Translations under genes and position numbers: made by a program
Assembly (NCBI GenBank): GCA_039583875.1
Contig: CM077166.1
Location: 81,032,564 to 81,096,563 of the forward strand
From: Platanthera guangdongensis
Lineage: Eukaryota; Streptophyta; Magnoliopsida; Asparagales; Orchidaceae
Direction: 5' to 3'
DNA length: 64,000 nucleotides
In this document: one piece after another, positions 291 through 63,134 of the stretch
Position numbering within the stretch: position 1 is the first letter of the stretch
How the letters are laid out: the number at the start of each line of letters is the position of its first letter
Notes under the pieces: generated by a model
Database searches by the model: none
What the model saw: only the letters and a program-made list of their open reading frames with translations
What the model was told of the DNA's origin: nothing

Positions 291-2398
291 ATGGCATCAA
301 ACAAAGATTATGCAAGCACCAAACCTCCAGTTTGCAACCTTAACAGGTTTGCCATCTAGAAGGCAAGAATTAAATTGTATATGAATGTTATTGATGAGGA
401 TATATACAATTCTATTTTGACAGGTCCCCCTCAAGCTTCAACCTCTGCAACATCTACAAGCACTACTGCAGTTCCACCACCTGAGTGGACTGAATCCTAG
501 AAGAATGCAAAGATAGCTGATGCCAAGGCTATGAACATACTGGCACAGATTATGTCAGATGACATCTTTCAGAAGGTGGCTGAGTGTACCTCTGCAAAAG
601 CAATCTGGGATTCACTCAACCAAATGGTTGCTGGCTCAGCAGATGAGAGGAAAGATAGAAGATCAAACCTCATAACACAATATGAAAACTTCAAAAAGGA
701 TGAAACAGAAACAGTTGAAGTGATGTACAACAGGCTTAGCTCCATCATCAATGAGCTACGAACCTTAGATAAAGAAATCACCTTGACTGAAGTTAATGAC
801 AAGATCCTGATGTGCTTCCCAAGCTCATGGGATTCAAGGATCTGGCCTGTCAAGGAGGCCAGAAGCCTAACTGAGATATCTACAGAATCTCTATTGGACA
901 TGTTAAAGTCTTATGAACAATTGATCAAGTCCAGGGAGGCAGCAGAGCAAAGGACACTTCCACCAGCCAGAAAAGAGCAAAGTATAGCTTTCAAGGCTGC
1001 TGAGGAGATAGAGACATCAACATCAAATGAAGAGCTCATGAGTATATTTGTCAGATGATTCTACAAGATGGCAAGAAAGGACTTCAGAAGAAAGTCATCT
1101 ACGCAATATGACAAACCCAGGTATGATAAAACACCAACTAAAGAAGTGGTGTGTTTTGGGTGCAGGAAACCTGGTCACTTCCTCTTTGAGTATCCAGAGA
1201 ACCAGAAGAAAGAGAAGAGAAGAGAGAAAACACCAAGAAACAGCACACCAGCAAATCTTCTTCCAGCAAATACAAGAGGAAGGAAAACGGTTTTGTCGCT
1301 TAATCCTGGAGTGAAACTGAGGATGAATCAACATCTTCTAACTCCAGTGAAGATGAGGAAGAAGCGAGGGCTAATGAGGTTTGCCTTCTGGCAATTGATG
1401 CTTCCAGGAGCAATTCAGAAGAAGAGGAATCAGACAATGAAGAAGCTTCAGATTCAGAAACTGATAATGTACTAACTTCTTTTGATTACACTTCAGATTC
1501 TTTTAAAATTGAATTTAAATCACTGTGTATATACTTAATAAATTCAAAAAAAGAGATTAAAACCCTTAGGGAAAATTAGGAAATTTAGAAAACATTAACT
1601 CTGAAAATAATAGGTTAAAAGATGAATTATGCTTAGCTAATGAGCAAATAACATTGTTAAAAACTGAGCTTTGTGATGCTAAACAACTTGAGGAAACTCT
1701 TAATGGGAGAAGCCTCAAGCTGATGGACATCACAAGCACTGTGAATGCCAGACTTAATGGCAAGCTAGGCTTGGGTACTTCATCAGGTTTGTTCCCCATT
1801 CTCAGGAAGAACATCTTAACAACCCCCATAAAATTTGTCACTGCTAAGGGAAAAGAAAAAGTAATCAATAAACAAACAACAGGAAATGTTTCTAAATAAA
1901 TAGGTCAAAAAACCAACAAATAGAAAACCATAGGTAACAAGGTTCAGTAGAATTTGTCGAACTTAGATCGACTAAATATAGTCAGTTCGTCGAACCCAGA
2001 TCGACGAACTCTGAACGCAAACTATAGTTATAGTTATTCGTCTAACTGCGATCGACGAACTCTGTATGATTTGTCGAGCAGAGGTCGACAAACAAGGGGC
2101 ACAAAAATGAATATATTCATTTTTGGGCAGAGATCGACGACCTCAACCCTATTCGTCGAACTCTGGTCGACGAACTCACTGAAATTCGTTCAACCAAGAA
2201 AGACTTAACCAAAACTTTAGTTATAATAGAAACTTAAATAATTCTAGGAAAGCTTTTAATCTACTAGCTAATTGGGTCATACCACCTAGGAGATATCACC
2301 CTCTAGGATATAAATCCCAACCAGAATATTCTGTTATTTCCAACTTTTCATACCAGGAAAATAAAGTACCCAAGGTAACCTGGGTCAAGAACATTTAA
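291..2398 (+). pseudogene. gag: Copia-1 gag (capsid/nucleocapsid), broken
   Basis: Gag forms the virus-like particle and packages the RNA. The ATG at 291 was chosen because the following codons align with Copia-2 gag. The frame holds a UBN2-type capsid region (about 531-960) and a zinc knuckle near 1150 (CFGCRKPGHFLFEY) whose last Cys is Tyr. An acidic, Ser-rich linker follows, then a predicted coiled coil (around 1570-1720) and a repeat-coded tail. Breaks are TAG at 357 (codon 23, Trp in the ancestral frame), TAG at 498, TGA at 1056 and a frameshift near 1290. The frame ends in a tail (PKVTWVKN) shared with Copia-2, with TAA at 2396. It cannot make a working Gag as it stands. Confidence 0.88.
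1954..2200 (+). repeat. Palindrome array inside Copia-1 gag (TTCGTCGA-N7-TCGACGAA)
   Basis: Inverted repeats of TTCGTCGA and TCGACGAA, usually 7 bases apart, recur about five times. The best copy has 10-base arms at 1984-1993 and 2001-2010. Read in the gag frame the unit encodes S-S-N-x-D-R-R-T, so the array adds a basic/polar peptide repeat to the gag C-terminal linker. The same array lies at the same place in Copia-2 (47838-48100), but Copia-3 lacks it. Confidence 0.85.
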
Positions 2399-5584: not shown

Positions 5585-5595
5585 TTTATGTCTGC

Positions 5596-5880
5596 ACTCG
5601 ATGAATTTGCCAAAGTTCGTCAAATGGAGCTCGACGTATAGAAAGTTTGTGAGATATTCGTCGAACGCAAGACGACGAACTCTCTGTGAGTGAAGTTGTT
5701 TTCGTCAAACGGAGATCGACGAATTCACTTCAGACAACTTTCGCCGAACGGAGCTCGGCGAAATGTCTTCAAATCTTCAGACAGAGTTCGACGAATTATT
5801 TGACTATTGATTTTTTTGTCGATCTCAGGTCGAAGAATTTTTTAATTTTTCTCGTGCAACGGAGTTTGTCGATTCATATT
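5596..5880 (+). repeat. Palindrome array between pol and ORF3, Copia-1
   Basis: Repeats of TTCGTCGAACGGAGATCGAC-type units (arms TTCGTCGA and TCGACGAA) fill the space between the pol stop and the TATA-like box of ORF3. This is the same motif as in gag (1954-2200) and the 3' LTR (9268-10110). No ORF with support lies here. Confidence 0.85.
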
Positions 5881-5887
5881 CTGGAAA

Positions 5888-5906
5888 CCCTTATATCTAG
5901 GTTTTT
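5888..5906 (+). promoter_or_regulatory. Candidate ORF3 promoter, TATA-like box, Copia-1
   Basis: CTTATATCTAGGTTTTTC aligns with CTTATAACTAGGTTTTC in Copia-2 (51775) and GGTATAAATAGGTTTTCG in Copia-3 (63123). All three sit after a palindrome array and 85-107 bases before the ORF3 ATG. A leader with CTTTCTGTTCCC follows in Copia-1 and -2. TCTCTTGCAG just before the ATG could also be a splice acceptor, so a spliced RNA is an alternative. Confidence 0.5.
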
Positions 5907-5979: not shown

Positions 5980-8914
5980 ATGGCTATTCCAGCAGGTGCC
6001 CTAACCGGAATGAAGTTTTACACGGGATTTGACGTTGACTTCGAATCCTTTCAACATTCAGATCCAATCTTTCTGCATATACTGTAACTTCTAGAGGAAC
6101 AGAAACTGAAAAATCTGATGTCAACCAGGATAAAGCTATCTGCAACTGAAATCAGAGAGTGGGTTTATACATCTACATCAGAGGAGAACACTATGATCAG
6201 AACAATTACGGGTAACTCTGTATCTTTATCTCTCGCTATACTTACTGAGATTTTTGGATTGATTAATGGTGAAGAACAGTTAGAAATCGATTCAGACGAA
6301 TATGATATGATGTTGAGTTTAATGGGATATACTGGAGATAATCCAAATAAGTTGTTAAAGAAACATCTGTCTGCCGAATTTAAGTTCTTGGCAGATATTG
6401 TAGGAAAGGTCTTACTGGGCAAGCATACTGCCCATGACTACATTACCAGACACCAGTTTCTGGTTATGTGTGCAGTGATTAATAAGAAGGAAGTGGATTG
6501 GGCTCAAATCATATTTGATTTGATAAAGAAAAAGAACAACAAGAAGGAAGTATGCTTTGGAAGGATCCTAGGGATCTTTCTGAAGGAGAACGCTGTTGAA
6601 TCCCTGGTCTCACAGACCATATTCATTAATACCAGCAAGCGGCTCACATGCACCTTGTTTGGCAGGTGGGAGAGGATCATAACTAAGCCATCCAAGGCTT
6701 CAACCTCTTCCACCCCAGCTTTTGAAAGCACCAGGGCTGTAAGAGCCACTCCCCACCCTACTAAAGAGATCATCCCCACATCTCCATCTCTTCCAACAAC
6801 TCAACAACCAACACCCTCTGTTGATATTTCCACTACATTTACATCTTCTGCCACCTCTCCACCCCTAAGATCTTTCCAACAACCCCTCATCTCCTATTCA
6901 GGAATACCATCAACCCACTCTATCCCCCCAATCCCCCACAGATTTACCAGATCCAACACCACCTTCATCTCCTCTTCCACCTCACCTATCCTCCATTCCA
7001 ACTTTTGATCTTCTGACTTCCCCCCTCCATTATCCTCCTCCTCCACACCCATCCACTAAGGATGTCCCCATACTAGATGCTACTCCTCCATCTCCACCAT
7101 CATCTATCATTCCTCCACATGTTTCTACACACACAACATCTGCAACATTCACTGCTCCAACATTGGACCCCTCCACCATATATTTCATCATTGCTATCAT
7201 CACACCCCTCATAAAATTAATAATAACAGAGGCCATTCTACCTCTTGCTACCTCTATATCTACTCTATCTGCTCAACTTTCTGCCTTCACTGTTTCCCCC
7301 TCTTCATTCAGGGGCATGGCTCCAATATATACTGAAACCAGGCAGGGGGAGATGCTTAATGAAGAAGCTGCAGTACTTCCAGCAGAAGCAGAAATCTCAG
7401 CTCCAGTAACAGCAGAGGCAGAAGCACCACTAGCAGATACAAATTTAATTTTAGGGGATGTAGATTTTATTCCTGATGATAGAGATTTAATTGATTTGAT
7501 TCATTTCATTAATACTGACATGGACTTTGATGAGTCAGTTATTGAAGAAATTCTTTATGTTTCTGAATTCCACATTAATCCCATAGTAGACTTAGTTGTT
7601 TTATTGAAAAGTTTTGATACTGCATTTTTGAAAGTTACTCCAGCAGTATATACTAATCCATCCTTGGCTATTGTAACATATACTTCTCTAATCTCTCCAA
7701 AAGTTGCTAAGCAACTTAGAGATAGTTTTGTTATTTCAATGCCAGCAGTCATGCTATCTCAAGAAGAAGTTATTTCTGTTCCAATATTTGTAATGGATGA
7801 CTCGCCCATACCAAATCTGGATGATTTGATTTTGGCTAATATAGAAGAAGAAAGTAAGGCAGCTGCTGAAAGCACTGTCAGAACCAGTTCTCCAGTCTCT
7901 CTTATTGTTTCTTCTCCTTGTCCTGTTGAAGTTCCTGCTCAAGCTATATCTCTACCTCCAACTCCTGAAAAGCCTATCATTTCTGCTGAGGCTTTGAAAG
8001 CTCTAAATGACTTATATAATAACCCTCAGGGATCAGATAATGATAATGATGATGATGAGGATGAGGAAGATGATTCTGATGATGAACCCAAGTAGAAGAA
8101 AGTATCCAAGAAAAGAAAAGCCCCTCCTCCTCCTGCTCCAAAGCCAAATCCAAATAATGACACTCCATATTATATTCTTCAAAAGATAACTCCATAGAAA
8201 GGGATGTCAGCCTAGATATGGCTATCTAAAAACTAGCAGAAGGAGAGGAAGAAAATCAGAAGATACTCTCCTCCTCCAGCTCAGAAGTATAGAAGAGATC
8301 CACCTCCTTCAGCTACTGGTGCTTCAAGCACATCTTCTCAAGGATCTGCCGCACTTCAAACATATCAAAGACACCAAGGGAGATCACATGGAAGCATCCA
8401 ACACTGGCAATATTCTTCGGGAAAGCAACATCAACAGCAGCAACAAAATCAACAGCAGCAACAACATCAGCAACAACAACAACAATCCAATGAACATCAA
8501 ACAGCTGAAGGCTCTAAAAGACCATCTTCTCCTCCTGTTCCTTTTGAAGATCCTGAAACAGCTACTACTGCTAGAATGACCAGGTTCTGGGAACTAGTAG
8601 GCCTTTCATTGATTAACAAAGCCAAATCTGAAGGAAAGGATACTACAGAATATTCAACAATGTTAAAGTACAGGAAAGAAGAACTTAAGAGATTTGATAA
8701 AGCTAACAAGATTTTCAATGTGGATGATTACATGAAGTTGCACCCAGAAGCAGTTGTCCCTAGAGCTACATCTTTGAAGATTATAGGGGCTGCTGATATG
8801 ACTATGACAAAATGCAAGCTTCAAATCCAAAAAGAGAAATTGTGTTTACAAAGTATGGAGAGAAGGGCAAGCAAGAAATGCCAAAGGAAAAGAAACAGAA
8901 GAAGTAAATTTTGA
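5980..8914 (+). pseudogene. Copia-1 ORF3, large accessory protein of unknown function, broken
   Basis: The ATG at 5980 follows a conserved leader. The frame is open except for TAA at 6085, then shifts within the Pro/Ser/Thr-rich part near 7000-7160 and continues to 8914 with a few stops (8093, about 8194, 8212, 8227). Ignoring breaks it would be about 980 residues. Domains in order: an N-terminal alpha-helical region with FLADIVGKVLLGKHTAHDYI and GRILGIFL; a Pro/Ser/Thr-rich stretch; a hydrophobic/amphipathic segment near 7180-7300; an acidic run (DDEDEEDDSDDE); a basic and Gln-rich run; and a conserved C-terminal module (NVDDYMKLHPEAVV, IIGAADMT). Copia-2 and -3 carry homologues. SIRE elements are known for an env-like third ORF, but I see no clear signal peptide or fusion peptide, so the function is open. 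Confidence 0.75.
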
Positions 8915-9070: not shown

Positions 9071-9084
9071 AAATAGGGGGAGAT
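9071..9084 (+). other. Copia-1 polypurine tract
   Basis: AAATAGGGGGAGAT lies directly before the TGTTGG start of the 3' LTR. It is the expected plus-strand DNA primer. Confidence 0.88.
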
Positions 9085-9267
9085 TGTTGGATACCTAGTA
9101 AGATTTGGGCTAGGTTCACTAAGTTAGGATCATATGACCCACAATGTATAGCCAGGGTCATAGTTATGTCCTAGAGTCTAGGCCAAGTCCTTAGCGTCAA
9201 CATCACATGGACCAGCCATCAACAAGACTTCCAGAGACTCAAGACTTAGAAGATTTCAACTCTGTAA

Positions 9268-10110
9268 AGTGAGTTCGATGTTTTTAGAACCCAGGTCGAC
9301 GATTTTCATGCTCAGCTCGACGACCTCGGAGAAAATTCTCTGAGCTGAGCTCAATGAACTCTATTCTTTGGTCGACGAAAACTTGGATTACAACCACACT
9401 TCAAGTTCAGGAAAGCTCAAGATATCCAAGTCCTTAGAATCAGACTTTGGTCAACGAACTCTATTATTTGGTTGACGAATCTTTGGACTACTACAGCATT
9501 CTGTCAAGACTATGTTCTCTAGTCTCAGGTCGATGAACTTAGTTCTCTACCCGATGAATTCTGGATTATCTACTTCAGCAACTTAGAACCAGAAGACTTG
9601 TGTAGACACTCAGAGTATATGTCGACACCAACTGAGTCAACACTAGAAGCACTTATGTCGACACACAGATCATCAGTCGACACTTTGGAAAGGTTGTGTC
9701 GACACCATATAGAAAACTTGTGTCGACACACATGATATCAGTCGACACCACCTGTGTTGACACCAGGAGTAATTGTGTCGCCACACAAAATATTTGACAA
9801 CTCCAGAAACTCAGCTCGACGAAATCAAATCTTAGGTCGACAGATTCTGGAGACTTTAACTTTCATTTCAGATACAACTGTGAATATTCTAAGTCCAGAA
9901 TAGTTGCTGAACTCCAGTCGACGAACAAAGTTATCAGCTCGACGAACTTCAGATGCAGAAAAGGCAAAGTTTCAGAAGCATACAGTTCTGTTATCAAATT
10001 GATGATATTGGAACTTAGCTCGACGAACAGAAGTTATATGATCGACGAACACAGCAACTCAGCTCGACGAATGGTGGACTCAGCTCGATGAATTCTGTCA
10101 TCAATTCGAT
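9268..10110 (+). repeat. Mixed palindrome array in Copia-1 3' LTR U3
   Basis: TCGACGA/TTCGTCGA units flank a central block, about 9600-9790, of TGTGTCGACAC units. The latter are the type found in the Copia-3 and Copia-4 LTRs. The array therefore mixes the motifs of two copia groups. It ends about 250 bases before the TATA box. Confidence 0.82.
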
Positions 10111-10359
10111 GATTCCAGACTTAGCATTTATTCCTTCTGTCCTCAGTCTGTGACAATAATTTCTAAATGATTAATGATAAAATATTCTCTGAATATTACC
10201 ATTGGACGGTACATTAATCACGGCTTTCATCTGAATTATTGTTTTCCATTATTCCAACGGACAGTTGGGGAAAGGAATCAATGCAGTTTATTTTCAAGGA
10301 CCGCCAACATTGATTGCCGAATAAGGATTCAAATTTTGAATGGAAATTCACTCAGCAAA

Positions 10360-10368
10360 TATAAAAAG
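10360..10368 (+). promoter_or_regulatory. Copia-1 3' LTR TATA box
   Basis: TATAAAAAG lies downstream of the U3 palindrome array and upstream of a pyrimidine-rich stretch, the normal place for the LTR promoter. Confidence 0.6.
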
Positions 10369-11202
10369 AGATTTTTCTCTCTTTCCACGGAGATGCTAGA
10401 CACAAGAAAGTAAGAACAATCAGAGTACCAGAGAAATTACAGTGACAACATACACAGACACAGAGATTTTCAATCAGTCTATCTTCAACAGCTTCTCTGA
10501 TCCTTTCACAAAAGCTCTGATACATAAAGAAGATATACTCTTAGAAGAAGAAGAACAATCATACAAAATCAAGAGTCTTCTTACTTCAACACTTCAGGAT
10601 TTACAAGGACAACAACTGTAAAATCTGTCAAGAAGATCCTTTAGATAAAGGCTAAAAGCTTGAAGGACTATCACCCTACAGCAAGGCTTCCATATTTCCC
10701 TGAACCACTCAATATATTAGTGGGAGCCATTTGCTACCATCAATAATCCACAAGCCTTCTCTCTAATTGTTGATAGAGAAGACAAAATCAACTCACTCAC
10801 CCACACTGTGTAAAGGGTTGTCATCTCCCTTCAAAAGTGATTCCTGGTTACAAGTCACCTGATCAAAAGACTTGGGGATTTGGTTTTTGAGCAGCTGATC
10901 AAAAGCTCATTTGTGTCAGGCATCAGATCAAAAACCTGACTGGATTCCTACCATGGTGGTAGAAGAGTGGATGTACCCAGGTTGGGGAACCACTACAAAG
11001 TTCTTGTGTCGACTGGTTTCCCTATTTCTTTTGTTTTCTTACTGTGGTTGTGATTGGTAGTTAGTTGTTGCTGTGTTATTTCTTTTAATCTATTTCTTAC
11101 AGCAATAGGACTAATCTGCATTATTCAGCAGAGAATTTTATAAAACTCTGAATACTCTATTCACCCACCCTAGAGTATTCCTGATCTAACAGCTCAATTT
11201 CA

Positions 11203-17420: not shown

Positions 17421-17894
17421 TTGCATGTTCATAAAGTAAAGGTGGTGGGTCTTCGGTATTGGAGAGTCGATGCACCGACGCCAATACGTTGACTCGGCAA
17501 GTGTGGTTTAGCACTTGGCCAAGTAAAGTCCGGTGCGACAGCCGGCAAGAGTATGAAGGAGCTACACGTAGTGAACCAACGTTGAGGCCTATGATAGGTC
17601 TGACTGGTAGTGCAATTACCGGTTTAGAGGTGGGCGGGGCCCAACCCACCACTTCTGTTTGCCACTATGGAGGTATCCTGGGAGGTTCGGCTCTAGAAAG
17701 GGGAAACTAAAGTTCCGTGTACACAGAGTCAAGTGGGTGTGTTGCACCTGCATGTTTGTTGGGTACATTAGAAAATGTGTACCAGATTTGGAGAAGCCTA
17801 ACATAGCTCAATGATATTCATCAAGGTGTATTTGATGTTGTTTTGAGTTTATATGTGCAGGTTAAGAATATACAGGAAAAGTTTCTAAGTCCAT

Positions 17895-18420
17895 GAGTCG
17901 ACACCAGAAGAAGCTGTGTCGACACTTGTGAATACTTGTGTCGATACTTGAGAAAAGCTGTGTCGACAGCTGGAGTCAATTGTGTCGACACTTGGAGAAG
18001 CAGTGTCGACACACAGAAAGTTCAGTCGACACACAGAAAGTTCAGTCGACACATAGAAAGTTCAGTCGACATCAATTGTGTCGACACACAGGCCTTGTGT
18101 CGACACACAGAAAGCTGTGTCGATATCAAATGTGTCGACACACAGGACTTGTGTCAATATACAGAAAGTTCGGTCGACATCAACTATGTCGACACACAGG
18201 ACTTGTGTCGACACACACAGCAGAATTTCTTTTAAGTTAATTGTGTCAAGACAAGAAGTGACTGTGTCGACACACAGGACTTGTGTCGACACATTCTTAC
18301 AGAAGCTATGTCAAGAATCAGTGTCGACACCATGAGAGCTGTGTCGACATCACCAAGGATTATGTCGACACTTAGTCTACTTGTGTAGACACATGTGAAG
18401 TTCAGACTCGACATTTTTCT
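17895..18420 (+). repeat. GTGTCGACAC palindrome array, Copia-4 U3
   Basis: More than 20 copies or near-copies of the self-complementary 10-mer GTGTCGACAC (core GTCGAC) are spaced 10-40 bases apart with AGAAAG- or AGGACTT-like spacers. Many decayed copies differ by C-to-T or G-to-A in the CG. Confidence 0.9.
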
Positions 18421-18548
18421 GACAGAGACAAAGTTTCAAGAAGTGACAGGAAGACTTGACAACTGCCATAACCAACAGGTCTACTGCAACTGTCAGAACT
18501 GTTAGAAGTTGGTTAGCAACCGAATCAGCCGGTAACCTTGGATGAAAT

Positions 18549-18558
18549 CTATATAAAG
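18549..18558 (+). promoter_or_regulatory. Copia-4 LTR TATA box
   Basis: CTATATAAAG lies about 130 bases after the array, matching CTATATAAAGG in the Copia-3 LTR (56560). Confidence 0.75.
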
Positions 18559-19076
18559 ACAGATTCTATCAACAATATGATAGAAGTAAGATGAGAAGGA
18601 AAAAGAAGACGAAGTACTCAACACACAATTACAACAGAAGATCAAACATAAACAAGAAAATCCAGTCAGAGATTTTCAAGTGTATCTAAGTGAAGAATTT
18701 CAAAAGTTCTTCAGAAGAATTTGTAGAGAGAGAGAAAGATCCAACAATTCAAGTGAAGAAAGAGACTATCATCAACTAGTCTCTTAAGAGCAGATCCTGA
18801 ACTATCTGCAAAGAAGAATTCAGATTGATTTCTGGATTTAAGAAGGAAGCTCATTGAAGATCATCTTCAAGAAATTCAACCTTATTGTGTTCAGATTCAA
18901 GAAGCTTTGAAGAAATCCAAAGACAGGTTAATTTCTGGGTAATTAGATTCTTCAAGAACTGATCAAGAAAACTTTCTACTCATTATCTCTCAACTTGGGT
19001 GGAAGATAAAACATATTTTATATTTTTGCTCTGTAATATCATTATTAATCTGAGTTGTAAGCCTAGTTTATAAACG

Positions 19077-19300
19077 CTGAGGTAGGAGATTTTCATCTCT
19101 GAGTTGTAGGCCTTGGGAAGGCTGAGGTAGGGCTGAGTTCCTGAGGTAGGAGATTTTCATCTCTGAGTTGTAGGCCTTGGGAAGGCTGATGTAGGGCTAT
19201 GTTCCTGAGGTAGGAGATTTGATTCTCTGAGTTGTAGGCCTGGGTGTAGGCTGAGGTAGGGCTTAATTGCCTGAGTTGTAGGAGTGTGGACTCACTCTGA
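19077..19300 (+). repeat. 64-base minisatellite in Copia-4 LTR
   Basis: The unit starting CTGAGGTAGGAGATT and containing GAGTTGTAGGCC repeats at 19077, 19141 and 19205; the third copy is slightly divergent and is followed by partial units. Copia-3 has a shorter relative at 56985-57150. Confidence 0.85.
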
Positions 19301-19615
19301 GTTGTAGGAACCTCGACTGGGTTCTAAGATGTAAGATCTGTTGATTTGAGAAGGAAGGAAGAAGTTAGGCCGAATCTAGCACACTGCTAGATAGGCGAAG
19401 GGGGAAAGTGGATGTACCCATCATTTGGGGAACCACTATAAATCTGTGTGCCATCTGTGATTGTGTATAATTTTGTGATTTCTGTGATGTGGTAGCTGTA
19501 GATCTGATTGATTCTATTTGATTATCTGAATTAGTATTCTGCCTTAGAGTAAAAAAGTAATTACACCTATTCACCCCCTCTAGGTGTTTAGGTGATCTTG
19601 AAACCAATTCTTTCA

Positions 19616-19636
19616 AGTGGTATCAGAGCCAGGTTA
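19616..19636 (+). other. Copia-4 primer binding site (initiator Met tRNA)
   Basis: AGTGGTATCAGAGCCAGGTT follows the LTR directly, with the TGGTATCAGAGC core. Confidence 0.9.
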
Positions 19637-19771: not shown

Positions 19772-20260
19772 CAGGGGGCACACGGCCTGGGACACGGGCG
19801 TGTCCCAGGGCATGTCAAGCTTGAGTCGACGATTTGGCCGCTAGGTCGACGTTTTTCGCTCGACGAAATATCGAGACAGGGCACACGGCCTGAGACACGG
19901 GCGTGTCTCAGGGAGTGTCGAGCCCGTGTCGACGATCGGCCCGGGGAGTCGACGAATTCCGCTCGACGATGTGTCGAGACAAGGCACACGGCCTAGGACA
20001 CGGGCGTGTCCAAGGCCTTGTCGTGTGGTCAACGAACTTCGCTCGACGAAGTGTCTAGACTTTGAACACGTCCTGAAGCCCAGGCGTGTTCGGTGTGACA
20101 CGGGCGTGTCCAATAACCATGTGAGTCTCGGGTTATTTTCGGGGCTGTGTCGATGGAGGCACACGGCCGACCACATGGCCGTGTCAGTTGGAACACGGGC
20201 GTGTCAGGTCGAATACGGGCGTGTCGGATGCTCGTGTGTTGTTCCAGGTACGTCAATTTT
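19772..20260. repeat. Fragment X, left part: LTR-like with ACACGGGCGTGT and TCGACGA repeats
   Basis: Three roughly 110-base repeats run through 19772-20060. Each has CACACGGCC, GACACGGGCGTGTC and a pair of TCGACGA-type motifs. Further ACACGGGCGTGT and CACACGGCC phrases run to about 20225. The same phrases resume right of the Athila element (31520-31560), so the two parts are one fragment. Small ORFs here follow the repeat and are not supported as genes. Confidence 0.75.
20256..20260 (+). repeat. Left target site duplication (ATTTT) of Athila-like element
   Basis: ATTTT directly before the 5' LTR matches ATTTT directly after the 3' LTR (31510-31514). Five bases is normal for Ty3/gypsy. Confidence 0.85.
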
Positions 20261-33139: not shown

Positions 33140-33957
33140 CTTTGGGGGAGACTTGTACACTCCACTAATCACCGCAAGATGTCCAACTACCGATAGTGTT
33201 TCACAGACCACTAATAAAGGAAACAAACCTTGCGGTCGGTGGATTTGCCCACAAACACCCACAAGAACGAAACACCTGGAAATAAATCTCAGGACTTGGC
33301 AGATCGGATTCTACTCGACATTTTCTAGGTTAAAGACACGGTTGATCAACCTCTAGGAATGATTTGCAGTCCCCAAATAATCCCTAACACGCTCTACAAC
33401 AATATCTAGGAGCGGTAAAAGCCAACAACATAACATTTCGCTAAATCTCTACACGTTACAAGGTTGAGTTATCATGACAAGAACTTGCAAAATTAAATGG
33501 TCTTCTAGGAAGATTAAACATGTCTACTAATTAGCATAACCAAGTGCACAAAATTAAAGAAAGAAAACTTAACCGTTACCATCAAAATTGGACAAGGTGG
33601 AAAGAGGGTAAAGCACCACTTGTCTTGGTTTTACCGGAAAAGTCCTTTGATTCACTCCACGTCGTAGATCGGGGCAAAAGAACACGGGAGGAGTTGAAAT
33701 CTAAACAAAAATGGTCGAAAGGGGGGGGGTAGTGCCGAAAAAACCTATTGAGAAAACTCAAGGAATGGGGAAAAATTTACCACGATAGCGTAGCCCTCGG
33801 CGAGAGCTTTCCGGATCTATGTTCGGTTGAAGATTTTGAGCACCGGAGCACCATCGGCGGCCATCAAAAGATTCCCGAAAAAGAAACTCTCTCTCGCTTG
33901 CTGCTCTGGTTCGGGAGAAAAATATCGGAGAAGTTGAAGTTCGGTTCTAAAACATAA

Positions 33958-33960
<3 letters not shown>

Positions 33961-34014
<54 letters not shown>
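33961..34014. repeat. (TA)27 microsatellite in Gypsy-2 3' LTR
   Basis: There are about 54 bases of pure TA. The other LTR has only a 14-base AT run at the matching place (42560-42573). Confidence 0.97.
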
Positions 34015-34020
<6 letters not shown>

Positions 34021-34214
34021 GTTTTGTCAAAAACGGGTTATTACGAGCGGTTTCGAGGGAACTAAAAATAGAGGTCTAGGATGACTCCAAATCGAAAAGT
34101 TCCAACATGAAAGTTGTAGATCTCGTCGAGACGAACAAATTTCATGTTGACCATTGTTTTGTACGACACTGTTTTGACCCTCAAAACGGTGCCCGAACTC
34201 AGACTGTACAGACT

Positions 34215-34745
34215 ACTCAAGAGGAAATATGTTTACTCGAGATGGAGGGGTTTACTCGAGATGGAGACTCGAGATGGAGACTTTTGGAACTCGAGATAAT
34301 CATAGGAACTCGAGATAATAGGCATAGAACTCGAGTGGATCAGGTCTACTTGAGATAGTAGGCATAGAACTCGAGATAATCAATCCAACGGGCTATTTAT
34401 GAGCAGTTTCGGGAAACTCGATAGTAGAGGTCTAAGATTGCTTCAAATCGAAAAGTGTCCAACATAAGAGTTTTAGATCTCGTCGAGACAAATAAATTTC
34501 ATGTTGACCAGTTTTCCATACAACACAATTTTGACCCTAAACATAGCGCCTGAACGCTGACTGAATAGAACAACTCGAGTGGAATAGGTCTACTCGAGAT
34601 GGAGACTTTGGGCACTGGAGACAACCAACCCAACTCGAGAAAAAATAAGGCAGATCTCGAGAGAAATCCGATCTCTCGAGATCCAAGGCTGAAACTACTC
34701 GAGAAGTTGAAGGGAGGACTCGAGACTAAGCCATTCACTCGAGAT
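34215..34745. repeat. CTCGAG array, Gypsy-2 3' LTR
   Basis: About 18 copies or near-copies of ACTCGAGATGGAGAC- and ACTCGAGATAATCA-like units share the palindrome CTCGAG. It is matched by 42780-43350. Confidence 0.88.
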
Positions 34746-35246
34746 AAACAGGGGGATCACTCAAGATAACAAGGCAAAATTTTACAATTGTAGATATTGA
34801 ACAAGGAAACACGAGTTCGAAACAGAGGCTCATATGTGCGCTGAATTAAACGAAACTCACACTGTATGCGAACAATGACGCTACGATTAAAATGGCGAAG
34901 CCAAAACCTAAATCCGATGAGTCATTCCCGAGATATTAATTTTCAATGTATATAATGAACATAAATTATTCAAAACTACAATCGCGTGCCGAGACTCCAA
35001 AAATTCTCGAATTGCGAAGATTTTTGACGAGCATGCCCAAAATTACACAACTTAAATCTCAAATGCAAAATTTCCAATTACCACAAAAATTCAAGAATTT
35101 GGCCGACTCGATGGAACGGACATGGAAATGCCTTAACGGTGTTGCGCCGTCAACTCGACGTTAAAAGTAACGCCAAGACATCATAAGTATGAGGATACCA
35201 AATCCAATAAAATCATCGGAAACAAAAAAAAATCGAGAGTGTTACA

Positions 35247-44485: not shown

Positions 44486-46039
44486 TGTTGGAACCCCACC
44501 TGTTTTAGGGTTTATTTGGGTTAGGTTCACTATTAGGATTGCATAGATTGACCAATAATATATAGTCTAGGGTCATAGGTATTTATTGAATCTTAGGGTA
44601 GGTCAACAAGTCAGTTTGATTGGACCAACCCCTCAAAAGTCTTAGAAGTCTGAAGATTTCAGAACAAGACTGATTTTTCTATGTTGAAGAAGCCGTTCGA
44701 CGAAATCTGAATGGAGTTCAACGATCTTCGTTCTCAGTTCGACGATCTCAAAGTGTCTTCTCTGAAGTTGAGATCGGCGAAAGTTTAACTGAGTTCGACG
44801 AACTCTGATCACCTATCAGTTGTTGAGTTTGACGATCTTCTATCTCTGGTCGACGAACTTGGAGCCCATCTTTGACAGTTTATTTTTACAGATCAACTTA
44901 CTCTGATCTCAGCTCAATAAAGACGATTTCTCAGCTCGACGAACTTGGAGTTCAGGTCGACGAAATATATTCTGAGCTCGACGAAATCTGTAAGTTCATT
45001 ATTTTCTATTTTTTGCAGTTTAATTCTCCAGATTGACCAAGGCCTATATAATATATTATTACATATATTGCTCTGAGTAATTAATTGCATATATTCTTAT
45101 GAATATAGTTGTTCATTGGCAGCATTAATTACTGGATTTCACAGAGTTAATATTCGGCTTAATAACTGGGACAATTAAGGAATCAATTTATTGCCTTTCT
45201 AGCTGTTTGTCCAAGTTCCAAGATTTCTGCAGTTAATCATGTAGAAGAATTCAAATTCTGAGATAGAATTTCTACAAGAAAAATAAAAAGGAGAAGAGAA
45301 TTCACTAAGTGTAGCAGACACAGACAGACCGAGTAGTAATACATTCAGTCTGCATACTCATATAGTCTTCATCAATCTGCAACTCTTCACCAACCTTTCA
45401 AGAGACATCAAAACACAATCCATCTAAAAGCTTCTGTAGTTCATCAAAGAAGACCTACACCCTGTAAAGCTTCCAGCAAATTCCTGAACAATAATCATCT
45501 CAGGGGGAGCTTTGACAAGATCAAATCCGCTAGTGTTCTCAGTTGTTTGTTTGAGAAAGAGAAGACAATATCACATTTATTTTTCACCCCACTATACACA
45601 GGGTTTTAACTCCCTTCAAAAGTTAACCAACTTGTTCTTAAGTCTCCTTAACAAAAGACTTAGCTTTGTTTTTGGGCACCTGATCAAAATCCTAAAGGGT
45701 TGTGAGATCTCCCTTAAAATAGATCTTGTGGTGACAGGGCACCTGAGCAAAAACCTGTTGGTGGCAGGGCACCTGATCAAAAACCTGTAGTGGATTCCTA
45801 CCAGGGTGGTAGAAGAGTAGATGTACCCAAGTTTAGGGAAGCCACTATAAATTTCTTGTGTCATCTGATTGCTTCCTATTTTCTTATAGCTGTGTGTTGT
45901 GATTAGTTAGTTTTTCTTTCCTGCACTCTCTTAAGATATATATATCACTATTTTTAGTTTAGCTGTAAAAACCTATTAAGTATTTTTTAAAAAAATACTC
46001 TATTCACCCCCCTCTAGAGTTAAACAGATCTATCCCTCA
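44486..46039 (+). repeat. Copia-2 5' LTR (1554 bases)
   Basis: It starts TGTTGGAACCCC and ends CTATCCCTCA before the primer site. It holds a TCGACGA array (44695-44992), an AAATAAAAAGG TATA-like box near 45281, and the TATTCACCCCCCTCTAGAG motif. Confidence 0.9.
44695..44992 (+). repeat. TCGACGA palindrome array, Copia-2 5' LTR
   Basis: About ten units of TTCGACGA, TCGACGAACT and related half-sites occur. There is no GTGTCGACAC block, unlike the Copia-1 3' LTR. Confidence 0.83.
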
Positions 46040-46055
46040 ATTGGTATCAGAGCAT
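46040..46055 (+). other. Copia-2 primer binding site
   Basis: ATTGGTATCAGAGC directly follows the LTR. Confidence 0.9.
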
Positions 46056-46171: not shown

Positions 46172-48293
46172 ATGGCACAGAATAAGGAATTTTCTAGCAC
46201 CAAACCTCTTGTGTGCAACTTGAATAAATTTGCACTCTGAAAGTCAAGAATCAAACTCTATATGAATTTTTTTGATGAGGACATTTTCAACTCCATCTTG
46301 ACAGGTCCCCCTACTCCCTCTACATCAACTTCAACAAGTACTTCAGCAGTTCCACTACCTGAGTGTACTGATGCACAAAAGAAAGCCAAGATGGCTGATG
46401 CTAAAGCAATGAATATTCTGGCACAGACAATGTCAGATGACATCTTTCAAAAGGTGGCTGAGTGCACCTCTACAAAGGCTATTTGAGACTCAATGAACCA
46501 AATTGTTGCTGCCTCATTAGATGAAAGAAAAGACAGGAGATCCCTCCTCATATCACAGTATGAGAATTTCAAGAAGGGGGAATCAAAGACAGTTGCTGAG
46601 ATGTATAGCAGACTCAGTGTCATAATAAATGAACTGAGAACCCTGGACAAGGATATCTCATAAACTGAGATAAATGACAAAATGCAAATGTGCTTCTCCA
46701 ACACTTGGGATTTCAGGATATGGCCAATTAAGGAGGCCAGAAGTCCAAATGAGATTTCTACAGAATCTCTCCTTGGCAAGCTCAAGTCTTATGAGCAGTT
46801 GATCAAGACAAGGGAGGCTGCTGGATAGAAGGCTTCCACATCTTCAAGGAAGGAGCACAATATTGCTTAAAAGAAATAGAAGAATCAGAAGCTCTTCTAG
46901 CTAATTAAGAACTACTCAGCTTGTTGGCTAAAAGATTTTATAAAATGGCCAAGAAAGACTTTAGAAGAAGGTCATCCAAGAATGATGACAAGCCAAGATA
47001 TGACAAGACTCCTACCAAGCAGATTGTTTATTTTGGATGCAGACAACCTGGGCACATTCTACCTGAATGCCCAAAGGCACAGATGAAAGATAGAAGAAAA
47101 GAAAAGGAGAATAAAAGGAAATCAAGCAAGCAATATAGCAAGCACTCCTCCAACAAACACAAGAGAAATGAGAAAGGCTTTATTGCTGTGACCTGGAGTG
47201 ACACAAATGAAGAATCCTCATCTTCCAGCTCTATTGAATATGAAGAGGAGGCAAAGGCAAGGGAAGTTTATCTTATGGCTGTTAATTCCTCCAGCAGCAA
47301 ATCTGAAGCTGAGGAACAAGCTGAAGAATCAGAAGAGGAATCTGAATCTGAAGAAGATCAGGTAATCTCTTCATTTGATTTCAATTCAGAAGATTTTAAA
47401 ACTGAATTTAAATTCTTGTGCAATGATTTAATCAAGTCAGAGAAGGAAATAAAAATTCTTAGAGATAGATAGTTTGAATTTGATAACCTATTTGCTGAAA
47501 ATATCAAACTGAAAAATGATTTAGACTTAGCTAATGAACAAATCATTTCACTAAAAACTAAATTATGTGAGGCTAAGCAACTTGAGGAATCTCTCAATGG
47601 GAGAAGCCTTAAGCTGATGGACATCACAAATACAGTCAATGCTAGATTAAATGGCAAGCTGTGCTTAGGTGCTTCATCAAGCTTACCCCCCATATTAAAG
47701 AAAAATATTCTTTCAACACCAATTAAATTTATCTTTGAAAAAGGCAAAGAAAAATTATAAAGACTACTCAACCAAATATCTCTTAGAAATCTATAATTAA
47801 GAAGAAAAAGAATAAGAATCTGAATAAAAACTATGTTCAATAGATTTCATCGAACTCAGATCGACGAAATGTGTATAGTTCATCGAACCAAGATCGATGA
47901 TCTATGAACGCAAATTATAGCTATAATAATTCTTCTTACTGCGTTCGACGAACTATATATGGTTCTTTGAGCAGCGATCAACAAACTTGGGGCATAAAAA
48001 CTGACTATGTTCATTCTCTGAGCAGAGTTCGACGAACTCATCCCTATTCGTCGAACACAGATCGACGAACTTATAGTAATTCGTCGAACACAGTCAGGTT
48101 TAATAAAAACTATAACTCTGTTAGAAACTTCAATTAATTCAGAGAATCTACTAATCCTTTTACTTAATGGGAAATACCATCTAGAAGATATCATCCCTTA
48201 GGATATAAAAATCAACCTGAATTTTTTGTTATTTTCAGTTTCTCTGATCAAAAGAAACAAGGACCGAAGGTAACTTGGGTCAAGAACACCTAA
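46172..48293 (+). pseudogene. gag: Copia-2 gag, broken
   Basis: The ATG at 46172 matches the Copia-1 start. The UBN2-type region spans 46380-46800, the zinc knuckle is near 47030 (YFGCRQPGHILPEC, first Cys changed to Tyr), and a Ser/Glu-rich acidic linker follows (47215-47370). After it come a coiled coil (47460-47610) and the SSNxDRRT repeat tail. TGA at 46238 is at codon 23, the same codon that is TAG in Copia-1. Other breaks are TGA near 46484, TAA near 46661, TAG near 46826, a frameshift around 46880-46920, TAG near 47470 and a further shift near 47750. The frame ends PKVTWVKNT with TAA at 48291. Confidence 0.87.
47838..48100 (+). repeat. Palindrome array inside Copia-2 gag
   Basis: TTCGTCGA-N7-TCGACGAA units occur, the best at 48047-48069. 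In frame they read SSNSDRRN, SSNQDR, VRRT and SSNTDRRT. The position matches 1954-2200 of Copia-1. Confidence 0.85.
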
Positions 48294-51478: not shown

Positions 51479-51725
51479 CCAAGGTCGAAGAATTGATCAC
51501 ATTTCGTCGAACAGAGATCGACGACCTGAGAACTATTCTTGAGATTTTTCGTTGACCTGAGATCGACGAACTCTCTGCGTGAAGTTATTTTTGTTGAGCG
51601 GAGATCGATGATTTTGCCTCAGAAAAATTTTCGTCGACCTGAGAATGACGAAAATTTTTCCCCTCTTCTGACTAAGATCGACGATATTATTTCTTCATGA
51701 AATTTTTCGTCGACCTGAGAATGAA
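51479..51725 (+). repeat. Palindrome array between pol and ORF3, Copia-2
   Basis: Repeats of TTCGTCGAACAGAGATCGAC and TTCGTCGACCTGAGA-type units occur, at the same place as 5596-5880 of Copia-1. Confidence 0.85.
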
Positions 51726-51774
51726 GATTGTCTATTTTTCGCAGGACAGAGCCCAACGCTTAATATTGTGAAAA

Positions 51775-51791
51775 CCTTATAACTAGGTTTT
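51775..51791 (+). promoter_or_regulatory. Candidate ORF3 promoter, TATA-like box, Copia-2
   Basis: CCTTATAACTAGGTTTTC lies 85 bases before the ORF3 ATG and about 50 bases after the array. ACTTTCTGTTCCCTTG follows, as in Copia-1. CTCCTTAGTTTTTACAG before the ATG also resembles a splice acceptor. Confidence 0.5.
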
Positions 51792-54642: not shown

Positions 54643-55459
54643 TGTTAGATCCCTAGTTAGATTTGGGCTAGGTTCACTAAAGTAGGATGTTTGACCAAAC
54701 ATGTATAGCCACGGTCATGTTTGTCTCCTAGAGTCTAGGCCATGTCCTTAGAGTCAACACTACATGGTCCAGCCATCAACAGACTACAAAAGACTCAGGA
54801 CTTAGAGAAATTTCAAAGACTCAGGAAATGAGTTCGACGTTCGTCGAACTTAGCTCGATGAAAGGCGTGCTCAGCTCACCGAACTCAAAGACAACTCTCT
54901 GAGCTGAGCTCGACGAATTTGGTTCTCAGGTCGACGATCTCTGGATGCTCTACCTCAACATTCTAAAGTCCAGAAACATCTAAATATTCTAAGTCCACAA
55001 TCATACTCCAGTCGATGAATTCATGTTCTCCGCTCGATGAACTTGGACCACAATCTTGACAAGTTTTATCAAGTAGCTGTTAGCAGTTCTCAGGTCGACG
55101 TACTTAATTCTCAAGTTAATGATTTTTTGACACTTTACTTCTACATTCTTAAGTCCAAGAAACATTTCACTGAACTCCAGTCGATGAAGTTAGAATCTCA
55201 GCTCGACGATCTTGATCCAAAGAATTGGCAAGATTCTAGAGAAAGCAGTTATCTGTTCTTAGGTCGACAATCAACAATTATCTGGTCGACGAACAATAAT
55301 TATTTGGTCGACGAACATAATTTCTCAGGTCGACGAACTCAGGACACAGGTCGACGAATTCAGTTCTTCACTCGATGATTTCTATGCAGTTCCAGACATG
55401 GAATTTTCCTCCCCTGTTCCTTATTTTAATGCAGTAATTCCTGTATAATCAATGCTTAA
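54643..55459 (+). repeat. Copia-2 3' LTR, left part only
   Basis: It starts TGTTAGATCCCTAG and reads like the Copia-1 LTR start (GGGCTAGGTTCACTAAAG). TCGACGA units fill 54830-55380. It stops at 55459 where Copia-3 begins; the rest lies beyond the window. The start is nearer in sequence to Copia-1 than to the Copia-2 5' LTR. Confidence 0.82.
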
Positions 55460-55604
55460 TGTTGGGTACATTGGAAAATATGTACCTGATTTGAAGAAGC
55501 CTCCCCCTACTCAATGATATACATCAAGGTGTATTTGATGTTTTTTGAGTTACCTTGTGCAGGTTAAGTAATTGCAGGGAAAGCTTAAAAGTTTCTAAGT
55601 CCAT

Positions 55605-56430
55605 GTGTCGACACCTAGAAAAAAAGTGTCGACACTTAAGAAGACTTGTGTCGACACCCAGAGAAGCTGTGTCGACACTTGGAGTAATTGTGTTGACACC
55701 AGGAATGCAGAGTCGACACTAGAAGGAAAGTGTCGACACATACAGGCTGTGTCGACGCTCAATGAAGAAATGTCTAAAGAATGAGTGTCGACACTTAGAA
55801 GCAATGTCGACACCCAGAGGAACTTTGTCGACATCAAAAGTGTCGACATTAGGAGGCTGTGTCGACACTCAGCAAAATATCAACAAAGTTCAAGTACAAG
55901 TGTCGACACTAGGAGGTTGTGTCGACAGTCAGCAAACTTCAACAGAGTTTAACTACAAGTGTCGATATAATGAAGAATGTGTCGACACACAGAAAAAGTC
56001 TCAACACATGAAGAAAGTGTCGACACTAGGAGGCTGTGTCGACACTCAGAAAATTTCAATAAAGTCTAAGTACAAGTGTCGATACAAAGGAGATGTGTCG
56101 ACACTAAACAAAAGTATCAACACAGAAGGCATGTGTCGACACTAAGAAAATGTGTCGACACTTAGCAAGTATCAACACAAGAAGATGTGTCGACAAAAAG
56201 GAGTTGTGTCGACACTTACAAGAAATCAACTAAGTATCAAAGAAGAAGGACTTGTGTCGACACACAATATCAGTGTCGACACATTCTGAAGAAGCAGTGT
56301 CGAGAAGTAATTTCTACAACACAAGGAGTTGTGTCGACACCATGAAGACTAGTGTCGACACTTAGCCTACTTGTGTCGACACTTAGTCTATCAGTGTCGA
56401 CACTTAAAGACTAACTGTCTCGACACTTTC
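55605..56430 (+). repeat. GTGTCGACAC palindrome array, Copia-3 U3
   Basis: About 35 copies or near-copies of GTGTCGACAC occur with spacers such as ACTAGGAGGCT and ACTCAGCAAA. Within it, a longer unit near 100 bases (CTAGGAGGCTGTGTCGACAC ... CAACAAAGT ... AAGTACAA) repeats about three times between 55845 and 56090. Confidence 0.9.
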
Positions 56431-56560
56431 AGATAGTTACAGAAAATTCAAGAAGTGACTGGATGTCTTGACAGCTGTCATTCCAGCCGGTCTACTGCAA
56501 CTGTCAGTGCTGTCAGAAAGTTGTTAGAAACCGGATCAGCCGGTCACCATGAAGAAAGCC

Positions 56561-56570
56561 TATATAAAGG
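56561..56570 (+). promoter_or_regulatory. Copia-3 LTR TATA box
   Basis: TATATAAAGG lies about 130 bases after the array, matching Copia-4. Confidence 0.75.
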
Positions 56571-56984
56571 CTTATTCTGTCAACAGAAGAAGAAGATTAA
56601 CAACAATCAATTGAGATGATCGATCAAGCAATTCATTGAAGAATCAACTGAAGTGATCAGAAGATCTAAGAAGTTGGGGAGAGAGAGCTCCTTCTAAGAA
56701 GACAGCTGTTGAACCAGGCTGTGAAGAAAGTTTCAAATTGTGATCTGATTCTTAAGTCAGCAGTGATTGAAGATCATCTGCATAGAGACTCAACCCTACT
56801 GTGTTCTAAATTCAAGAAGCTTTGAAGGAAGCCAAGGGAGGTTGATCTCAGCAAAGTTCTTCCAAGAACTCATAAAGAAACCTGTCAACTCTTCTCTCTC
56901 ATTCTGTGTTGTTGGTATATGCTTTGTAATTTTAATTTCTTGTAGGATCCTAAGGGATCTGGGTTGTAAGCCTGAAATTATAAA

Positions 56985-57150
56985 GGCTGAGTGGTAGGGC
57001 CTGTGTGCCTGAGTGTAGGAGATTCATTTCTCTGAGTGTAGGCCTTGTTGAGGGCTGAGTGTAGGCCTTGTTGAAGGCTGAGTGTAGGTCTTTGTGAAGA
57101 CTGAGTGTTAGGGCTTTTGAGCCTGAGTTGTAAGAGTGGGATCACTCCGA
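56985..57150 (+). repeat. Short GGCTGAGTGTAGGCC repeats, Copia-3 LTR
   Basis: GGCTGAGTGTAGGCCTTGTT-like units of about 25 bases occur in tandem near 57050-57110. They are related to the 64-base minisatellite of Copia-4. Confidence 0.7.
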
Positions 57151-57450
57151 GCTGTAGGAACCTATTTGGGGTTCTGAGTGTAAGATCTGAGGATCGGAGG
57201 CATAGTGGAGAAGTTGGGCCGAATCTAGTACACTACTAGATAGGCGAAGGGGGAAAGTGGATGTACCCAGTCCTTGGGGAACCACTATAAAATCTGTGTG
57301 TTCTCTGTGTGTGCTTTATTCTGTGATTGTTGTGCTGTATTGCTGTGAAGAATTGTTTATAATTTTGAGTTTCTGCCTTTAAAGTTTAAAAAGATTAAGT
57401 GCACCTATTCACCCCCCCCCCCTCTAGGTGTTTAGGCACTAGTTCTTTCA

Positions 57451-57471
57451 AGTGGTATCAGAGGGAGGTTA
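57451..57471 (+). other. Copia-3 primer binding site
   Basis: AGTGGTATCAGAGGGAGGTT follows the LTR. It is two bases off the GAGCCAGG seen in Copia-4. Confidence 0.85.
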
Positions 57472-62747: not shown

Positions 62748-63090
62748 AAGGTGTCGACACACAGAGTTGTCTGTGTCGACACAGAAAAGTGGTGTCGACA
62801 TTTCAGAGAAATGGTGTTGACACATCTAGGAAGTCTGTGTCGACACTTCAGAGAATCAGTGTCGACACAAGCAGTGTAGGTGTCAACACATCCAAGGTGG
62901 TGTCGACACTTAGGCTTTACTCAGAATTAGTCTAGTAAAGTCTCGACTAAGTGTCGAGCTAAGTGGTGTCGACACATAAACAAGTGTCGACACATATATT
63001 CTGTCGACTATACTTGTGTCGACACATAGTTGTCGAGACATAGCAGTAAGTGTCGACACTTTTCAACAGTGTCGACACAATTTAAGTATT
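62748..63090 (+). repeat. GTGTCGACAC array between pol and ORF3, Copia-3
   Basis: About 17 copies or near-copies of GTGTCGACAC fill the space between pol and the ORF3 TATA box. This is the same motif as in the Copia-3 LTR, and the array ends about 30 bases before the box. Confidence 0.9.
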
Positions 63091-63122: not shown

Positions 63123-63134
63123 GGTATAAATAGG
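63123..63134 (+). promoter_or_regulatory. Candidate ORF3 promoter, TATA box, Copia-3
   Basis: GGTATAAATAGG is a near-perfect plant TATA box 107 bases before the ORF3 ATG. It aligns with 5888-5906 and 51775-51791 through the shared TAGGTTTTC context. Confidence 0.62.

Follow-up and report, generated by a model that had tools for sequence, protein, structure and literature searches.

The window, the whole 64-kb stretch of DNA analysed here, contains portions of three copia-type elements that have an open reading frame (ORF3) after pol, other pieces, and two Gypsy-type LTR pairs, the latter label being given from layout with no family search. The copia features located below lie on the plus strand. 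Copia-1 ends in a 3' LTR (9085..11202) with the polypurine tract (PPT) AGGGGGAGAT immediately 5' of it at 9075..9084, and the end of this LTR shows a 91.7% match (181 columns) to the truncated 5' LTR at 1-180. Copia-2 has a 5' LTR at 44486..46039, including a motif array at 44690-44990, and a second, partial LTR at 54643..55459 (array 54840-55370) that is cut by Copia-3. The two LTRs are just 54% alike over the first ~200 bp, the second is nearer to Copia-1 (80% alike in the first 193 columns, vs 54% to the Copia-2 5' LTR), and no PPT is found ahead of 54643; Copia-2 is therefore taken to be a composite or recombinant. Copia-3 begins with a 5' LTR at 55460..57451 (end approximate), which holds an array of GTGTCGACAC sites at 55605-56426 and a TATA box at 56561, and its 3' end lies outside the window.

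These elements carry several features of Sireviruses. At the 3' LTR the PPT AGGGGGAG is present with AT/TG after it, in Copia-1 as AGGGGGAGATTG at 9075. Sireviruses have multiple PPT copies 5' of the 3' LTR, to which one extra AGGGGGAG at 7344 in Copia-1 and one extra AGGGGGAGAT each in two related loci (L131 and L149) may correspond. The 5' LTR/PBS junction reads GGTATCAGAGC at 184 in Copia-1, at 46043 in Copia-2 and at 19619 in a Copia-3-like LTR, and GGTATCAGAGG in Copia-3; presumably the junctions in the window fit the conserved Sirevirus junction motif. The poly-C integrase signal TTCACCCCC, also a Sirevirus feature, is found near the LTR 3' end at 134, 19570, 46003, and 57408. ORF3, placed by position, lies between pol and the 3' LTR, where Sireviruses have their ENV-like ORF.

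Motif arrays in the window

Ahead of ORF3 in Copia-1, at 5596..5880, is an array of inverted pairs, TTCGTCGA-N7-TCGACGAA, with about 40 bp between units and including one unit with both arms altered (TTCGCCGA..TCGGCGAA). This array, reported in the initial annotation, is real: with up to one mismatch, 16 matches to TCGACGAA/TTCGTCGA are found at 5590-5900, compared with a mean of 1.74 and a maximum of 6 in 300 dinucleotide shuffles, the number used for every region. The Copia-2 pre-ORF3 array (approximately 51503..51760) is the same array by descent, with 9 such matches (shuffle mean 1.32, maximum 7). The pre-ORF3 array of Copia-3 consists of GTGTCGACAC and occupies 62751..63078, with two more sites at 63148 and 63187, past the TATA box. 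At up to one mismatch, 15 GTGTCGACAC-type sites are counted in this internal array (shuffle mean 0.08, maximum 2) and 30 in the Copia-3 LTR (mean 0.19, maximum 3). Outside the copia arrays the window holds three exact TCGACGAA/TTCGTCGA sites and one GTGTCGACAC site (up to one mismatch), all of them within another repeat at 19.8-20.1 kb. The stretch 19776-20250, outside the copia arrays and just 5' of a Gypsy-type LTR, contains a ~103-bp repeat that carries GACACGGGCGTGTCC and TCGACGA sites. The Gypsy-type LTR pair at 33146-35230 and 41736-43813 has a CTCGAG palindrome array of its own, with spacing mostly 19-23 bp.

Four motif families are referred to below: A (TCGACGAA/TTCGTCGA, as in Copia-1), A' (ATCGTCGA), B (GTGTCGACAC, the Copia-3 type), and C (TACTCGAGTA). 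Palindrome arrays had been described at both the LTR and the internal place, and this holds for Copia-3 and for the internal arrays of Copia-1 and -2, which are built of inverted pairs around a 7-bp loop, but not for the LTRs of Copia-1 and -2, which carry mostly one-way half-sites. The Copia-1 LTR array (9285..10110) is built of one-way TCGACGAA half-sites, and exact TCGACGAA:TTCGTCGA counts in the LTR arrays of Copia-1 and -2 are 7:0, 6:0, and 5:1. Six more A-type LTRs are also one-way (8:1, 7:0, 6:0, 5:0, 10:1, and 7:0), with A'-type LTRs being less one-sided (59:25 over 9 loci). In Copia-1 and -2 the match between places extends past the 8-mer, with C at -6 of TCGACGAA in 26/34 LTR and 41/50 internal half-sites and G at -2 in 31/34 and 39/50, respectively. 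The internal motif is that of the element's own LTR in Copia-1, -2, and -3, as had been claimed, with the qualification that the Copia-1 LTR is mixed: its array includes a block at 9600..9784 with seven GTGTCGACAC-type sites (up to one mismatch), and no sites of this type are found in the Copia-1 internal arrays.

Successive sites are often about 21 bp apart. Among successive distances of 11-70 bp, those of 19-23 bp make up 116/212 in B LTRs, 58/92 in B pre-ORF3 arrays, 32/46 in C LTRs, 15/15 in C pre-ORF3 arrays, 44/63 in A LTRs, and 28/63 in A' LTRs. Such spacing, about two helical turns and seen in four motif families, suits proteins that would sit on one face of the DNA. The ~20-bp period, like the repeated codons described below, could be a relic of tandem duplication, and slippage might produce an equal spacing.

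Agreement between LTR and internal arrays across the genome

The host genome of the window, 4.25 Gb in size, allows the pairing of motifs to be followed in many copies. With up to two mismatches allowed, the unit TCGTCGAACGGAGCTCGACGA matches the genome at 120267 places on one strand and 119914 on the other, and its backward control at 0. Twenty 10-kb loci around exact TCGTCGAACGGAGCTCGACGA matches (20 of 100 places listed) form a motif-chosen sample and fall into two families, A (TTCGTCGA) and A' (ATCGTCGA), that differ in an outer base absent from the search pattern. The A' motif is found in both LTR and gag in 9 of the 20 loci and in all three arrays, gag included, in four of these (L134, L137, L143, and L146). 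The proportion of A' sites is correlated between places (LTR vs pre-ORF3, rho 0.72 over 14 loci; LTR vs gag, 0.79 over 16; gag vs pre-ORF3, 0.74 over 14), the loci not being independent of one another. In A-type LTRs the share of A' sites reaches 40%, with few in the internal arrays of these elements, and one locus, L135, is an exception with A' in gag, A before ORF3 and a mixed LTR. A-type LTRs mixed with GTGTCGACAC sites are found in the window (Copia-1) and in L135, L140, L142, and L149, with none such in internal arrays. The mixed A-type LTRs are possibly a snapshot of motif turnover by exchange.

A second sample is independent of the motifs. It is anchored on the PPT/LTR junction AGGGGGAGATTGTTGG, which has 32504 and 32228 genome matches (backward control 1 and 0), and comprises 20 of the first 25 plus-strand places, for each of which the internal stretch and the LTR start were fetched. 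The internal stretch includes RNase H, the end of pol, in 11 of these 20 elements, and in 11/11 the pre-ORF3 motif is the LTR motif: seven carry GTGTCGACAC (B), two TACTCGAGTA (C), one TCGACGAA (A), and one ATCGTCGA (A'). When a cluster is defined as three or more copies, four further pairs beyond the 11 list clusters, one of them mismatched. In the mismatched pair (L187/L188) the clusters are CAGTCCGC and E-type (GATTCTCGCCGA), respectively, and the internal one lies in another, nested element, as judged from PPT position and pol similarity. Among the nine anchors without the end of pol in the internal stretch, the A motif matches in L163/L164. The match is weak in L167/L168, with 6 degenerate E-type half-sites (up to two mismatches) internally and 15 in the LTR, the internal count comparing with a mean of 0.08 and a maximum of 1 in mononucleotide shuffles. 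No internal cluster is listed in the anchors L157, L171, L173, and L179. Two anchors were set aside: L175 has E-type sites at its very start, but by eye this stretch resembles an E-type LTR, and L159/L160 both carry CAGTCCGC, but L159 contains gag. Among the 10-kb loci, the CTCGAG array of L147, at first sight a counterexample, belongs to a nested Gypsy-type LTR. Two more LTR motif types, ACTCAACG (D-type) and ATTCTCGCCGA, occur in L158 and in L168, L172, L176, and L188, with internal arrays absent from the stretch or weak (L167).

On a tree of RNase H with 28 rows (anchors, 10-kb loci, and window elements), the four motif groups require three changes, which is the minimum, and 0/200 label shuffles reach three; A (72/78) and B (79/41) are weakly supported as groups. 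Each motif change on this tree is common to LTR and pre-ORF3 array, with the mixed LTRs as a blemish. The proposal that the paired motifs switch together between families is thereby borne out in 11/11 anchored elements, four motifs and three tree changes, albeit not absolutely, given the mixed LTRs and L135.

How the two places came to agree may be judged from the spacers between sites. With the motifs masked, the spacers of LTR and internal array within one family are unrelated in Copia-3 (z 0.3), in C-type elements (0.8 and 1.0), in Copia-2 (1.3 and -0.2), and in the first half of the Copia-1 LTR array (1.5), whereas those of same-place arrays in Copia-1 and -2 are plainly common (z 19.7 and 37.5). 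The match therefore lies at the level of the motif and not of a recently copied block, and copying of the array as a block was rejected as an explanation, the spacers being unrelated in most comparisons. Two comparisons run contrary to this, that of the Copia-1 pre-ORF3 array with the second half of its LTR array (z 6.4), where the unmasked alignment is one 43-column stretch around the motif, and that of the Copia-3-like LTR with the Copia-3 internal array (z 3.2).

Arrays with no function at all, spread by replication slippage and exchange so that the match is simply inherited history, would account for the tandem-repeat structure and for the mixed LTRs. The spacers of the GTGTCGACAC block in the Copia-1 LTR also resemble those of the LTR at 17757-19600 (z 5.3, 0/100 shuffles as high), vs a z of only 1.0 against the Copia-3 LTR. 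Joint switching without shared spacers, a codon bias in gag, a fixed loop length, and a fixed distance from array to TATA box speak against this explanation, which is the least probable of those considered and very improbable in itself.

The gag array and the candidate ORF3 promoter

A third array, absent from the earlier description of these elements, lies inside gag. In Copia-1 it spans 1953..2174, in the portion that related copies read as gag (SSNxDRRT-type repeats), and in Copia-2 it spans 47846..48069 with six units at periods of 33/51/33/51/33. Its units are the same as the pre-ORF3 units in both elements, and 6/6 units in Copia-2 and 4/5 in Copia-1 share one codon phase, the window copies having stops nearby. 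A TAG stop stands at the same place in Copia-1 (1948-1950) and Copia-2 (47841-47843), directly 5' of the gag array and in its frame. Related copies are open across this region; the frame of L126, for example, extends for 591 residues across the array, with Ser/Arg-rich repeats of the SSNGARRS type. When the array stretch is compared with the remainder in five open gag frames (L124, L126, L127, L129, and L130), serine is encoded by TCG in 45/70 codons vs 1/185 elsewhere, and arginine by CGA in 44/53 vs 5/73. This bias suggests that the motif is kept as nucleic acid inside coding sequence, and would thus be constrained, against codon preference, not only as protein. Part of the bias could come from codons copied by tandem duplication. 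No GTCGAC site is seen in the gag-pol part of Copia-3, and a protein search with the gag array gave no candidate.

Alternatively, the arrays could be RNA hairpins with roles in packaging, dimerisation, gag/pol recoding, or as small-RNA sources or decoys. Compared with shuffled sequences, the internal arrays fold better (z -6.70, -2.87, -4.20, and -4.37 in Copia-1 and -2; -10.62 in Copia-3), as do the gag array of L134 (z -5.17), part of the Copia-3 LTR (-8.98), and the L134 LTR (-5.72). Where a left arm has a partner, the loop length is 7 in 21/21 A pre-ORF3, 30/30 A' pre-ORF3, and 43/54 A' gag cases, and arms pair slightly better within their units than when re-dealt (134/160 vs a mean of 128.2; 74/5000 as high). 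Palindromes in maize Sirevirus LTRs have been termed small-RNA hot spots in one report (PMC5311732). Palindromic DNA sites fold as RNA regardless, however, and 4/4 A-type LTR arrays examined fold no better than shuffles (z -0.02, -0.62, -0.77, and -1.00) despite having the same extended motif. What all sites share is therefore the DNA motif, and an RNA role appears quite improbable.

The candidate promoter of ORF3 comprises the internal array, the TATA box that follows, and a short leader. In Copia-1 a TATA-like box, TATATCTAGG, lies at 5892..5901 and the ORF3 ATG at 5980..5982, 9 nt past the splice-acceptor-like TCTCTCTTGCAG; in Copia-2 the box is TATAACTAGG at 51778..51787 with the ATG at 51861, and in Copia-3 TATAAATAGG at 63125..63134 with the ATG at 63232. 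The LTR TATA box of Copia-1, TATAAAAA, lies at 10360..10367. Arrays had been said to end 30-250 bases before a TATA box in both places, and boxes are indeed found at about 20-250 bp; those before ORF3 in Copia-1 and -2 are, however, non-consensus (TTATATCTAG and TTATAACTAG), and the Copia-2 LTR box is ambiguous, at about 60 or 295 bp from the array. Plus-strand TATAWAW is in any case present in 20% of 250-bp stretches.

The box has a fixed position in Copia-3-type elements. In 8/8 pre-ORF3 regions of this type (seven fetched B-type copies and Copia-3 itself) TATAAATAG starts 55-57 bp past the start of the preceding motif site and lies about 106 bp 5' of the ORF3 ATG, the distance to the first ATG being 105-110 bp in the seven fetched copies. 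Elsewhere it is rare, with one plus-strand copy in the window, that of Copia-3, and five in the 200 kb of L131-L150. In 6/7 B-type LTR starts TATAAATAG follows 143-162 bp past the last motif, the seventh having none within 1.25 kb. Few independent events stand behind counts such as 8/8 here or 11/11 above, because common descent gives all copies within a family shared features.

Among A-type copies, TTATA(T/A)CTAG lies 26-71 bp past a site in 7/8, the other, L142, having TATATGTAG by eye; the TATA pattern had no match in L142 or any of the eight A' copies, and AATATAAAA was read by eye in the seven A' copies inspected. Between Copia-1 and -2, the sequence from the TATA-like box to ~45 bp beyond keeps 75-90% identity per 20 columns, vs 25-60% in the leader after it. 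The similarity of the TATA region between Copia-2 and Copia-3 (6/1000 shuffles as high) is stronger than that between Copia-1 and Copia-3, which alone is not significant (191/1000).

ORF3 of the Copia-1 and A' lineages could also be expressed from spliced full-length RNA, the pre-ORF3 array then serving another purpose. A pyrimidine-rich TTGCAG/TTACAG lies 5-9 nt 5' of the ORF3 ATG in Copia-1 and -2 of the window, L131, L142, and seven A' copies, and splicing in place of an internal promoter is therefore an alternative in these lineages, if rather an improbable one: no such acceptor-like site is seen before the ATG in the seven Copia-3-type copies inspected, and a TATA-like box stands between array and ATG in both lineages. 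The Copia-1 ORF3 piece has six relatives found, four of them named as proteins of the orchid Platanthera zijinensis (best, 68% over 71% of the piece), which makes an orchid host probable.

Candidate function and known systems

Starting from the observed arrays, the agreement of their motifs, joint switching on the tree, the gag codon bias, the fixed TATA position in Copia-3-type copies, and the spacing, a role in DNA binding may be proposed. The arrays are on balance probably binding sites for one family-specific DNA-binding factor that would act at the LTR promoter and at the ORF3 promoter. In such a mechanism, clustered sites of one specificity per retrotransposon family would be bound by a sequence-specific factor, the same protein at all places, with sites located at the LTR promoter, ahead of the internal ORF3 promoter, and in the Copia-1/-2 lineage also within gag. 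The internal array, with the TATA box and short leader behind it, would drive a separate ORF3 mRNA. A change of specificity in a family would be followed by joint change of its arrays via tandem duplication, loss, and exchange of sites, and the same factor, beyond activating transcription, might protect the element from silencing. Binding sites for one factor per family are favored because the DNA motif is common to all arrays and RNA folding is not. The gag array counts against a purely promoter-based model, as it sits in coding sequence and no promoter was found 3' of it. An arrangement of three arrays with one promoter per ORF was considered and rejected, since pol overlaps gag in another frame and no ATG precedes the protease motif of pol in 10/11 loci; the gag and pol pieces of Copia-3 are in one frame, and in A' loci pol is in a different frame from gag.

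In a further alternative, the arrays would be targets of a VANC-like anti-silencing protein that binds dense motifs, strips DNA methylation, and co-evolves with its motif. Arrays at several places that are family-specific and switch jointly resemble VANC targets, a site in gag suits a role that needs no promoter, and several arrays of Copia-1 and -2 have a CpG observed/expected ratio of 1.2-1.8. That of the Copia-3 LTR array, however, is only 0.5-1.0, and CpG decay at 19/53 Copia-1-type and 4/26 Copia-3-type one-mismatch sites indicates that the sites have not escaped methylation. The candidate ORF3 piece matches only PF20167, below the cut-off of that family, and its AlphaFold model is poor (mean pLDDT 47.5). 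An LTR related to the Gypsy-type pair at 33146-35230 and 41736-43813, nested in L147, carries TACTCGAGTA, the palindrome of copia family C, and its spacers are not shared; a host factor is therefore favored over an element-encoded one. Anti-silencing of this kind is thus unlikely, although less so than splicing or an RNA role. The same low probability attaches to a broader proposal, in which the element would label its LTR, gag, and ORF3 promoter with a DNA address of its own, recognized by a single co-evolving factor, for VANC-like anti-silencing or for activation, the address overriding codon choice in gag and each family changing it everywhere at once.

The preferred reading, one DNA-binding factor per family, gives an observation from 2010 without known function a testable form. 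A single genome in which such PPT/LTR junctions number in the tens of thousands and four or more motifs occur provides natural site swaps at two or three positions, and a candidate ORF3 promoter is offered where Bousios et al. (2010; PMC2829016) could not conclusively identify one.

Arrays of this kind have counterparts in other transposable elements. VANC targets are dense short motifs, often in tandem repeats, mainly non-coding, and different between related elements, according to the report by Hosaka (2017; PMC5735166), with further precedent in that of Sasaki (2023; PMC10398659). The arrays here are similar to these targets in VANDAL in being dense, family-specific, and present at several places per element. 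VANDAL differs in being another type of transposon, which encodes a transposase and for which the binding protein is known. Scans of viral contigs gave no relative in one case, 2 stretches in another, and at least 120 stretches in a third.

The palindrome-rich LTR region of maize Sireviruses reportedly attracts small RNAs (Bousios, 2016, as cited in PMC5311732). The LTR region is palindrome-rich here too.

The nearest known system is that of the RM boxes of Sireviruses, and nothing nearer was found among titles and abstracts of open-licence papers. Bousios et al. (2010; PMC2829016) describe these as palindromic, high-copy motifs in LTRs, 5' of the TATA box, with the motif also upstream of ENV in the nine ENV-carrying elements of the 13 with RMs. 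CpG islands were reported as well, and an internal ENV promoter was proposed on that occasion. The paired internal copy, which the initial annotation singled out as noteworthy, had therefore already been published. One motif in the LTR and before the ORF3 position is found here in 11/11 elements with the end of pol in the stretch, again in high copy and with a TATA box after the array. The cores are different, being TCGA in all four motifs (TTCGTCGA, ATCGTCGA, GTGTCGACAC, and TACTCGAGTA) vs the published CGG-CCG, to which Tnd-1 is the exception (Bousios et al., 2010). CpG islands beyond LTR and ENV are described there only in pol of two elements, and the same text, in its available part, makes no mention of a gag array, of the distance from TATAAATAG to the ORF3 ATG, or of the ~21-bp spacing. 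Thus the pairing of LTR and pre-ENV motifs has been known since 2010, and the gag array, the fixed TATA, and the spacing are new features. Beyond what is described for RM boxes, the elements studied here have a gag array, LTRs that in some cases carry one-way half-sites, and a TATA box at a fixed distance before ORF3, and their families allow joint switching of motifs to be followed within one genome.
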